NCBI GenBank assembly: GCA_001790855.1
Contig: MGDH01000038.1
Coordinates: forward strand, 1-64,000
Length of the DNA: 64,000 nucleotides
DNA from: Candidatus Schekmanbacteria bacterium RIFCSPLOWO2_02_FULL_38_14
GTDB lineage: Bacteria; Schekmanbacteria; GWA2-38-11
Direction of reading: 5' to 3'
In this document: piece after piece, positions 55,131-58,728 of the stretch
How the letters are laid out: every line of letters starts with the position of its first letter
Numbering within the stretch: position 1 is the stretch's first letter
Position numbers and translations under genes: made by a program
The notes under the pieces: generated by a model
Database searches by the model: none
Told to the model about the DNA's origin: nothing
The model's input: the letters and a program-made list of their open reading frames with translations, nothing else

Positions 55131-57101
55131 TCAATTCAGAATCTTCAATGCACTGTCAAGCTGGGCGTGGCTGCCAAGAATGACAAGAATGTCGCCTGAT
55201 GAAACATTAAAATCAGCATGGGGATTTGTTATTGCCCTGCCGTTTCTGATAACTGCAATAACTGAGGCTTCGGTTTTTTTCCTGAGGTCAAGCTCGCCTA
55301 AGGTTTTTCCGTTTGCAGGTGAATCATCTGTTACAAGAAAGCTGTAAGTAATGGTTGCAACAAGGATTTTTGAGAGGTCTGCCAGTCTTTCTCCTGCCTC
55401 TGCTGGTTTTCTGAGCATTGCGTATCCTTTGTTTCTTATAATATTGACCTGATTCAGAATGAGATTTGTGGGAACATAGTGTTCTTTTAATACCCTTGAA
55501 AAAATCTCAATGGAGGTTTCAAATTCTTCGGGAATTACTTCGTTTGCTCCAAGTTTATAAAGCTCTTCAACCTCGCTTATGTAGCGGGTTCTGACAATAA
55601 CAACTATTCCGGGGTTTAATTCCTTAGCAACCTTTACAACAGCCCTTGTTGCCAGAGGGTCAGAGATTGCTATGACAATGGTGTGTGCCTCAGAGATATT
55701 AAGATTTTTTAAAACTTCATATTGAGCTGCGTCTCCGTAAAGAACCTGGTGATTCTCCTTTTTTGCAGCATCAACCTTTTCTGAGTTGATTTCAAGAATA
55801 AGGTAAGGAATTCCTGTTTCCTTGAGCACACGGGCTAAGTTTTCTCCATTAAGCCCGTACCCAACTATTATTACATGTTTTTTAATTTTATTTATTCTTA
55901 GCTCTGCTTCTGAAGTTGATTTTTCAGAATAACGAATCTTTTTTGTTATAAAAATGGAAATGGCAGATGCCTGTTTGATAAGAATGGGAGTTAAAAGCAT
56001 TGTAAAAAATGCGGCAGAGAGAAGAATTTGATATGCTTCAAAAGTAAGAAGCCCTAATTCCCTGCCTTCATTGAGTAAGATAAAGGAGAATTCTCCTATC
56101 TGAAAAAGCCCTAAGGCAACCATCAAAGCAATCCTCAGGGGAGACCCGAGAAGCAGGATTATAAATGTGAGAACTGAAACCTTTAAAATAAAAACAACAA
56201 AGGAAAGACCCACAATGGAAAGGAAATTTTTCAAAAAGAAATCCAGATTGAAAAGCATACCAACTGAAATAAAAAATATGCTGTTAAACACATTTTTAAA
56301 AGGGAGAATTTCAGCAATTATCTGATGGGAGTATTCTGATTCTGAGATTACAAGCCCTGCCACAAAAGCTCCGAGGGCCAGAGACAAGCCAAAGCTTGAT
56401 GTGAGCCATGCTGTTCCAAGGCATAACAGGAAAATAGTGAGTGTAAATACCTCTCTGTTATTTAATCTGACAACCTGCTTCAGGATTTTTGGTGCTAGAA
56501 TATATGAAATAAGAAAGATTGCAGTTGCAGAGAGCAGTGCTGTAATAAGAGTTTTAATCACAAGGAAAAGAGAGGATGAAGAACTCTTTGAGAGTAACTG
56601 GATAGAAAGTAACATTGGTATAACGGCTAAATCCTGAAACAAAAGAATTCCCGTACTGAGATTTCCCTGTGGTGAATCAGTAATCCCATAGTCAGAGTAA
56701 AGCTTAAGGATGATTGCTGTGCTGCTTAAGGTTATAAGAAATCCAATGAGCAATGAATTGGGCAGTGGATGGTTTTGGAAAAATAATGGAATGGAAACAA
56801 GCCCTGTGGTTAAAAAAACCTGAAGCCCGCCACCCAAAAGCCAGGACTTTTTTGATTTCATCATTCTTGTGATTGAGGATTCAATTCCTATTGAAAATAA
56901 TAACAGAACTACACCTATTTGTGCTAACAGTTCAACTGTTTGAACTTCATGGATAAGCTTTCCGCCATATGGTCCAATAATGACACCACTGATTAGAAAA
57001 CCTATAACAGGAGGAAGTTTAAGGTAATGGAAGATTATGCTGACTGGAACAGAGACAGCGAGAAGGATTATTAAGTCAATCAGCAAAGGAATTTGTTCCA
57101 T
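55131..57101 (-). CDS. CPA2 monovalent cation:proton antiporter, KefB-like
   Basis: 656 residues. 12-13 membrane spans (about 5-380) with the CPA2 patterns FLISGVIIGPYGG, LSSTAIILKLYSD and LALGAFVAGLVISESEYSHQI. Then a TrkA-N (RCK) domain HVIIVGYGLNGENLARVL at about 410, and a TrkA-C domain near 570-656. It ejects K+ or Na+ in exchange for protons and is gated by nucleotides. Convergent with serA, 18 bases apart. Confidence 0.92.
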   Translation of the reverse strand: MEQIPLLIDLIILLAVSVPVSIIFHYLKLPPVIGFLISGVIIGPYGGKLIHEVQTVELLAQIGVVLLLFSIGIESSITRMMKSKKSWLLGGGLQVFLTTGLVSIPLFFQNHPLPNSLLIGFLITLSSTAIILKLYSDYGITDSPQGNLSTGILLFQDLAVIPMLLSIQLLSKSSSSSLFLVIKTLITALLSATAIFLISYILAPKILKQVVRLNNREVFTLTIFLLCLGTAWLTSSFGLSLALGAFVAGLVISESEYSHQIIAEILPFKNVFNSIFFISVGMLFNLDFFLKNFLSIVGLSFVVFILKVSVLTFIILLLGSPLRIALMVALGLFQIGEFSFILLNEGRELGLLTFEAYQILLSAAFFTMLLTPILIKQASAISIFITKKIRYSEKSTSEAELRINKIKKHVIIVGYGLNGENLARVLKETGIPYLILEINSEKVDAAKKENHQVLYGDAAQYEVLKNLNISEAHTIVIAISDPLATRAVVKVAKELNPGIVVIVRTRYISEVEELYKLGANEVIPEEFETSIEIFSRVLKEHYVPTNLILNQVNIIRNKGYAMLRKPAEAGERLADLSKILVATITYSFLVTDDSPANGKTLGELDLRKKTEASVIAVIRNGRAITNPHADFNVSSGDILVILGSHAQLDSALKILN

Positions 57102-57161
57102 AAGTATTAACTATATTCTTCCAAACAGAAAGATTCCAAGATAACATCGGGCTACACATTA

Positions 57162-57262
57162 TGTCATTGCCTGCCTACCGCAGGCAGGCTTTAGGGCTAC
57201 CTGTCTGCCGACAGGCAGGAAGCCCTTCGCAATGACGAGCGAGGGACCTGCTCGCAATGACA
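57162..57262. repeat. R1/R5 composite palindrome
   Basis: GTCATTGCCTGCCTACCGCA and GCAGGCTTTAGGGC, then CTGTCTGCCGACAGGCAG and GCCCTTCGCAATGAC form nested hairpins; a CGAGGGACCTGCTCGCAATGAC arm follows. Part of a 289-base divergent spacer upstream of htpX. Confidence 0.65.
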
Positions 57263-57390: not shown

Positions 57391-58362
57391 ATGGTGAATA
57401 TGAAATTCAGAATGTATCTTTTATTAGCCGTTCTATTTGCAATAGTCTACGCTATTATTACAGTAGGAGGTACTTTTTTAGGGATTGGAAACTTTTATTT
57501 CTACTTAACAATATCCATTGGGATGATGCTTGTTCAATATATGATAGGTCCAAAGATTGTTGAATGGTCAATGGGAGTAAAGTACATCAATAAAGGAGAA
57601 TATCCAAAATTGGACAGGATGATTGATGAGCTTGCAGTGAGTGCAAAAATTCCAAAACCCAGAATCGGCATCTGTGAAACACCAATGCCGAATGCCTTTG
57701 CTTTTGGCAGGGGAGTAAATGACGGAAGGGTTTGTGTAACAAGAGGGATTCTTAATATCCTTGAACAAAATGAGCTGAAAGCAGTTTTAGCCCATGAAAT
57801 GAGCCATCTTAAAAACAGGGATGTGCTTTTTATAACAATTCTTTCAGTTATTCCAATGATTCTTTACCGCATTGCGTGGAACTTCATGTTTTTTGGCGGA
57901 GGAAGAGACAGGGAAGGCAGCGGCGGTAATGCTGCGCTTGTCGGAATGGCTGCTTTTCTTTTTTATTTCATTACAAACCTTCTGGTTCTCTATGCGTCAA
58001 GGATAAGGGAATATTTTGCTGACAGGGGGTCAATGCAATTGGGAAGTCAACCTGCTGACCTTGCATCAGCGCTTTATAAGCTTGTCTATGGTTCAGCTAA
58101 AATGCCAAAAGAGGCATTGAAACAGGTTGAAGGGATGAAGGCATTTTTTATCAATGACCCTTCAAGGGCATTGCGTGAAATCCGCGAGTTGCAGCAGCTG
58201 GATTTGGACAGAAGCGGTACAATTGATGCCGGTGAATTAGAGGCTTTACGCATAAAAACCATTAAATTAAGCTTTAGTGACAGGCTTATGGAAACTCTGA
58301 GCACTCACCCTAATATGCTCAAGAGGATTAATGAGCTTTCAAAAGCTAACAGAAGATTCTGA
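57391..58362 (+). CDS. htpX: M48 membrane metalloprotease HtpX with EF-hand-like loop
   Basis: 323 residues. Two N-terminal spans, the zinc motif HEMSHLKN (HExxH), two further spans (about 148-166 and 183-202), and the second zinc ligand Glu in REYFADRGS. Residues 271-282 (DLDRSGTIDAGE) match a canonical EF-hand calcium loop, DxDxSGxIxxxE, an unusual insert in HtpX. HtpX degrades misfolded membrane proteins. AAAGGAGATAATATA precedes the ATG (Shine-Dalgarno AAAGGAG, spacing 8). Confidence 0.9.
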   Translation: MVNMKFRMYLLLAVLFAIVYAIITVGGTFLGIGNFYFYLTISIGMMLVQYMIGPKIVEWSMGVKYINKGEYPKLDRMIDELAVSAKIPKPRIGICETPMPNAFAFGRGVNDGRVCVTRGILNILEQNELKAVLAHEMSHLKNRDVLFITILSVIPMILYRIAWNFMFFGGGRDREGSGGNAALVGMAAFLFYFITNLLVLYASRIREYFADRGSMQLGSQPADLASALYKLVYGSAKMPKEALKQVEGMKAFFINDPSRALREIRELQQLDLDRSGTIDAGELEALRIKTIKLSFSDRLMETLSTHPNMLKRINELSKANRRF

Positions 58363-58698: not shown

Positions 58699-58728
58699 GG
58701 GTAGGGGAGGCTAAAGCCTCCCCTACCC
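58699..58728. repeat. R6 perfect palindrome
   Basis: The unit contains GGGGAGGCTAAAGCCTCCCC with further GGTA/TACC extensions, giving 14-bp perfect arms. Sits between the M20 remnant and the lipoprotein gene, downstream of the latter's stop. Confidence 0.75.

Follow-up and report, generated by a model that had tools for sequence, protein, structure and literature searches.

A canonical EF-hand-like loop inserted ahead of the active-site plug in HtpX-like membrane proteases of archaea and bacteria

In a 64,000-nucleotide stretch of Candidatus Schekmanbacteria bacterium RIFCSPLOWO2_02_FULL_38_14 (contig MGDH01000038.1, positions 1 to 64,000, hereafter the window) we identified an HtpX-like membrane metalloprotease in which a canonical 12-residue EF-hand loop, DLDRSGTIDAGE, sits in an insertion next to the active-site plug. 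Judged from its sequence signature, this form of the protease, which we refer to as EF-HtpX, is present in many archaea and in some little-studied bacteria, and calcium may well stabilise it or switch its proteolytic activity on or off.

The htpX-like gene lies at 57391..58362 on the forward strand, as do all features of the protein described below, and encodes a 323 aa M48 membrane metalloprotease, identified from the ORF translation, Pfam and NCBIfam. The protein matched Peptidase_M48 (PF01435) with an E-value of 7e-37 and 127.5 bits against a gathering score of 20.3, and its nearest curated family is HtpX, yet it falls under every NCBIfam HtpX equivalog cut-off (the highest score, 229.9 bits, was to NF002669, whose cut-off is 341) and we therefore call it HtpX-like. 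It is the sole match to its own sequence in the genome at E <= 0.001. Three motifs of the family are all present: the zinc-binding/catalytic motif HEMSH (residues 135-139, 57793..57807), the third zinc ligand E207 in EYFAD (58009..58023) and the sequence HPNMLKR (residues 306-312, 58306..58326), which is the HPx4R active-site plug described for BepA (PMC7950410, PMC8423444). H135, E136, H139 and E207 are invariant in alignment A1, as are the H, P and R of the plug (H306 to R312), and all three motifs are intact together in 82 of the 83 non-redundant relatives which form our conservation set. Hydrophobic segments at approximately residues 1-37, 29-57, 140-168 and 179-205 are accompanied by a charge distribution compatible with four membrane segments, and the active site and EF-hand of the window protein are predicted to be on the cytosolic side. 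A cytosolic catalytic domain has been stated for HtpX, not for the EF-HtpX clade (PMC9263693).

The loop covers residues 271-282 (58201..58236), codon 271 beginning at the first of these positions and codon 282 finishing at the last, and is followed by L; its putative Ca2+ ligands are D271, D273, S275, T277 (through the backbone), D279 and E282. A preliminary description had reported an EF-hand loop in HtpX at this position, which is borne out by the translation, by a PROSITE-type pattern and by conservation. The Pfam family EF-hand_5 (PF13202) matched residues 264-285 with an E-value of 1.9e-4 and 21.2 bits, under its curated cut-off of 25.9, and individual scans of proteins gave no score as high as the curated cut-off of any Pfam EF-hand family; because the gathering score is not reached we use the label "EF-hand-like, canonical loop" instead of formal Pfam membership. 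The same PF13202 model matched 31 of the 36 members of alignment A1, and when it was searched against the whole 2.68 Mb genome the HtpX-like loop alone matched (E 8e-5). The EF-hand pattern (PROSITE-type, PS00018) had a single match among the 65 window ORFs (19,874 aa), in the HtpX-like protein, the chance expectation from shuffled sequence being ~6.5e-4 per 323 aa. With a stricter version of the pattern, 4 million shuffled residues yielded 0 matches. A profile of the EF-hand region matched whole chains of calmodulins and CDPKs in the PDB at E-values of ~3e-8 to 2e-7, which sum four loops per calmodulin, the best single loop scoring ~14 bits.

Alignment with L091, an ordinary HtpX paralogue from a Methanoperedens genome, showed that the window protein has 36 additional residues between ..KAFFI and ..STHP, which defines a 36-aa insertion at residues 255-290 (58153..58260) carrying the EF-hand. 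Both L091 and a further paralogue, L092, lack the segment and the EF-hand pattern is absent from 27 ordinary HtpX, which rules out the loop as a heritage of all HtpX. The loop had been described as lying within a region that otherwise belongs to the membrane protease; this part of the description did not stand, as the loop belongs to a ~36-residue, lineage-specific C-terminal insertion and not to the common scaffold. The insertion stops just short of the plug. In the window protein the loop end and the plug are 24 residues apart, and across sampled EF-HtpX the distance from the glutamate at loop position 12 to the plug histidine is 22-24 residues in 46 of 46 rows, although the length of the entering side differs among them. 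Two archaeal HtpX-like proteins (L144 and L146) carry a different, basic, Gly-rich insert without an EF-hand near the same pre-plug place, and the insertion site seems to tolerate varied inserts.

An AlphaFold2 model of the window protein (36 sequences, mean pLDDT 79.8, pTM 0.80) places an entering (E) helix at residues 257-268 (58159..58194) and an exiting (F) helix at residues 280-287 (58228..58251) on either side of the loop, which agrees with the flanking helices anticipated for an EF-hand. These are followed by a short helix at residues 295-302 (58273..58296), which joins the EF-hand to the plug and contains E301, invariant in alignment A1, then by H306 of the plug and a helix at residues 309-319. 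The EF-hand region is modelled with moderate confidence (pLDDT ~59-81), and the helix-loop-helix also appeared in a separate, low-confidence model of the fragment. Foldseek matched the full model to Ste24p, ZMPSTE24 and the HtpX domain 3cqb, and weakly to BepA; when the C-terminal fragment was searched by itself, no fold match was significant, and at least four of the six weak matches (E 3.5-9.6) were EF-hand proteins.

Conservation of the loop follows the ligand positions. Across the 83 relatives, position 1 is D and position 8 is I/L in every protein, as are S/D/N at position 5 and D/S/T/E at position 9, whilst D/N at position 3, G at position 6 and E at position 12 are each kept in 82 of 83 (the exceptions being G, S and A, respectively); positions 2, 4, 10 and 11 are unconstrained, with entropies of ~1.9-3.0 bits. 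Constraint on the ligand positions combined with freedom elsewhere is as expected under selection for ion binding. Random residues in the loops of homologues, which would have spoken against an EF-hand, were not seen: the literal pattern is matched by the window protein and 77 of the 83 relatives, and the oxygen ligands at positions 1, 3, 5, 9 and 12 are kept in all relatives except one. In divergent, deeper archaeal clades the loop residues differ but the ligand chemistry is unchanged, for example DLNLDGHLDEYE, DLDGDGVIDERE-type loops and DLNGDGVIDERE. Each protein among the 83 relatives has one EF-hand loop only, with no pairing; most sensor EF-hands act in pairs, and single EF-hands are known in prokaryotes. 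An Omnitrophota EF-HtpX (L063:3001-3954) has a degraded loop, DPGHSGVITMEA, with HExxH, the third ligand and the plug intact, and the loop is therefore not indispensable for having the protease. A Methanoperedenaceae gene (L068:3001-3777) lacks approximately residues 232-283 in frame, the EF-hand included, either through a genuine deletion or through an assembly join.

A single scan across species genomes recovered ~40 close relatives with 48-77% identity, from Schekmanbacteria, Omnitrophota, Methanoperedens, Thermoplasmata, Scalindua/Brocadiaceae, Spirochaetota and a Dehalococcoidia bin. We surveyed the module with a profile of the C-terminal 79 residues. Of 386 genomes sampled throughout bacteria, 7 carried the module, and one further, weak match covers the plug region only. 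It was present in 2 of 4 genomes of the window's own phylum, in 74 of 193 Omnitrophota genomes (phylum inferred from the loci; one match partial), in 41 of 197 genomes of the phylum of Methanoperedens and in 33 of 145 genomes of the phylum of a Thermoplasmata genome, some of the weak matches in one of these surveys being ordinary HtpX or other inserts. The distribution is patchy, and two genomes from the window's own order have an ordinary HtpX without the module. In a careful maximum-likelihood tree, from which the insert and neighbouring columns were left out, all 46 sampled EF-HtpX rows formed one clade (support 100/99), in which archaeal EF-HtpX are basal and the bacterial sequences (Omnitrophota, Schekmanbacteria, Scalindua and others) nested, with archaeal ordinary HtpX adjoining the clade. 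The simplest reading would be a single gain in archaea followed by transfer to bacteria, the direction being our inference because the root was placed at the midpoint. Repeated independent gains are superfluous, as the proteins form a single clade even without the insert columns.

No gene neighbourhood is common to the lineages and none is conserved that points to calcium. Immediately upstream of EF-HtpX, Methanoperedens has genes for a BlaI/MarR-like repressor (Penicillinase_R) and for a short M48-type peptidase weakly similar to M56 (L044:2177-3279; also L041, L045-L047 and L067), an arrangement which is possibly a BlaR/BlaI-like regulatory operon. In the window, a Na+/H+ exchanger-type transporter with TrkA domains (55131-57101) is divergent from htpX, and short palindromic cctgcctaccgcaggcaggc / cctgtctgccgacaggcagg elements occur upstream of the gene (57160-57230), one of them again at 1902, perhaps as a small dispersed repeat. 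A perfect hairpin, gggtaggggaggctaaagcctcccctaccc, lies downstream of htpX (58699-58728), ahead of a convergent lipoprotein-like gene.

The place of the insertion suggests what calcium might do. The HPx4R motif builds the active-site plug of BepA, where H246, as the fourth ligand of the zinc, turns activity on or off; conservation of the motif extends across PF01435, HtpX included (PMC7950410, PMC8423444). H306 of the window protein corresponds to BepA H246 and, by analogy, may be a repressing fourth zinc ligand. Binding of Ca2+ by the loop is likely, given that the ligands are conserved, that the loop lies in an insertion confined to a single clade and that AlphaFold predicts a helix-loop-helix. 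One Ca2+ would be held by D271, D273, S275, the T277 carbonyl, D279 and E282; it would order the insert and shift helix 295-302, which leads into the plug, and with this shift H306 would be either bound at the catalytic zinc (protease off) or displaced from it (protease on). Influx through a damaged membrane, for instance, could raise cytosolic Ca2+ and thus tune HtpX when membrane-protein clearance is needed. We propose gating of the plug by Ca2+ on the basis of the plug motif in BepA and the near-constant spacing between loop and plug. The position of the loop immediately ahead of the plug makes a calcium switch plausible; it is the best single mechanism, on which our confidence is evenly balanced.

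The main rival is a structural site, in which a permanently bound Ca2+ stabilises the C-terminal subdomain as a cofactor and not as a signal. Single EF-hands or calcium sites are structural in some hydrolases, such as Slt35 and thermolysin, and the single, unpaired EF-hand, its strict conservation over great distances and the lack of a conserved signalling partner are all consistent with such a role, but the insertion is at a regulatory plug and not in the core scaffold, and the Omnitrophota protein without the loop retains its catalytic motifs. Free cytosolic Ca2+ is also normally sub-micromolar, so that high affinity would be required to keep a single site filled at all times, and we consider a purely structural role a real possibility, clearly short of an even chance. 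It is unlikely that the loop instead binds Mg2+ or Mn2+, or is a protein- or lipid-contact element which resembles an EF-hand: a bidentate glutamate at position 12, where E is kept in all but one relative, favours Ca2+ over Mg2+, and the constraint acts on exactly the ligand positions with none on the exposed ones, although a bacterial membrane protease, YqgP, does bind Mn2+/Zn2+ in its cytosolic domain (PMC7231995). A chance likeness without function could draw on the single-protein Pfam scores, which lie under the curated cut-offs, but it is refuted by the conservation pattern, which holds in 82 of 83 relatives and in two domains of life, and the uniqueness of the match in the genome and the shuffling odds likewise rule it out, leaving it a negligible probability.

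EF-HtpX resembles HtpX (MEROPS M48, PF01435; E. coli HtpX, partial structure 3cqb) in its predicted membrane helices, HExxH, ExxAD third ligand and HPx4R plug, but differs in the ~36-aa EF-hand insertion before the plug and in forming a separate clade. With E. coli BepA it shares the HPx4R plug, which in EF-HtpX comes right after the insertion site, and the histidine presumed to act as a fourth ligand of the zinc (PMC7950410, PMC8423444); BepA, however, is periplasmic, has a TPR domain and no EF-hand, and its presumed trigger is contact with a substrate or with BAM and not calcium. The 12-residue loop matches those of calmodulin, centrin and CDPK in its ligand positions, G at 6, a hydrophobic residue at 8, E at 12 and flanking helices, but it is single and embedded in a catalytic subdomain, and the individual proteins score under the Pfam gathering scores. 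Rhomboid-4, with EF-hands, and Bacillus YqgP, with Mn2+/Zn2+, likewise combine a membrane protease with a soluble module for divalent ions (PMC12615303, PMC7231995), but they belong to unrelated protease families, in which the module forms a soluble domain of its own and is not inserted at a zinc plug. We found no description of an EF-hand HtpX in the open-access literature, where the one paper that mentions both terms is unrelated. Automated databases may list M48 and EF-hand domains together; as members individually fall under the Pfam cut-offs, the module is probably unannotated in many genomes.

We put forward tentatively, and with confidence a little short of even, that an ancient archaeal HtpX clade gained an EF-hand at its zinc plug and became the first calcium-gated M48 protease, with calcium-controlled membrane-protein quality control then passed to Omnitrophota, Schekmanbacteria, anammox Planctomycetota and other bacteria. 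BepA has revealed how the plug works, and an EF-hand beside the plug names a specific candidate signal, Ca2+, for the activation of an M48 protease. Single-residue mutants of the loop are possible, and nature supplies pairs with and without it, in the EF-HtpX and ordinary HtpX of the same Methanoperedens genome and in the loop-less L063. If true, EF-HtpX would stand as one of the few clear examples, in archaea and bacteria, of a protease under the direct action of intracellular calcium.
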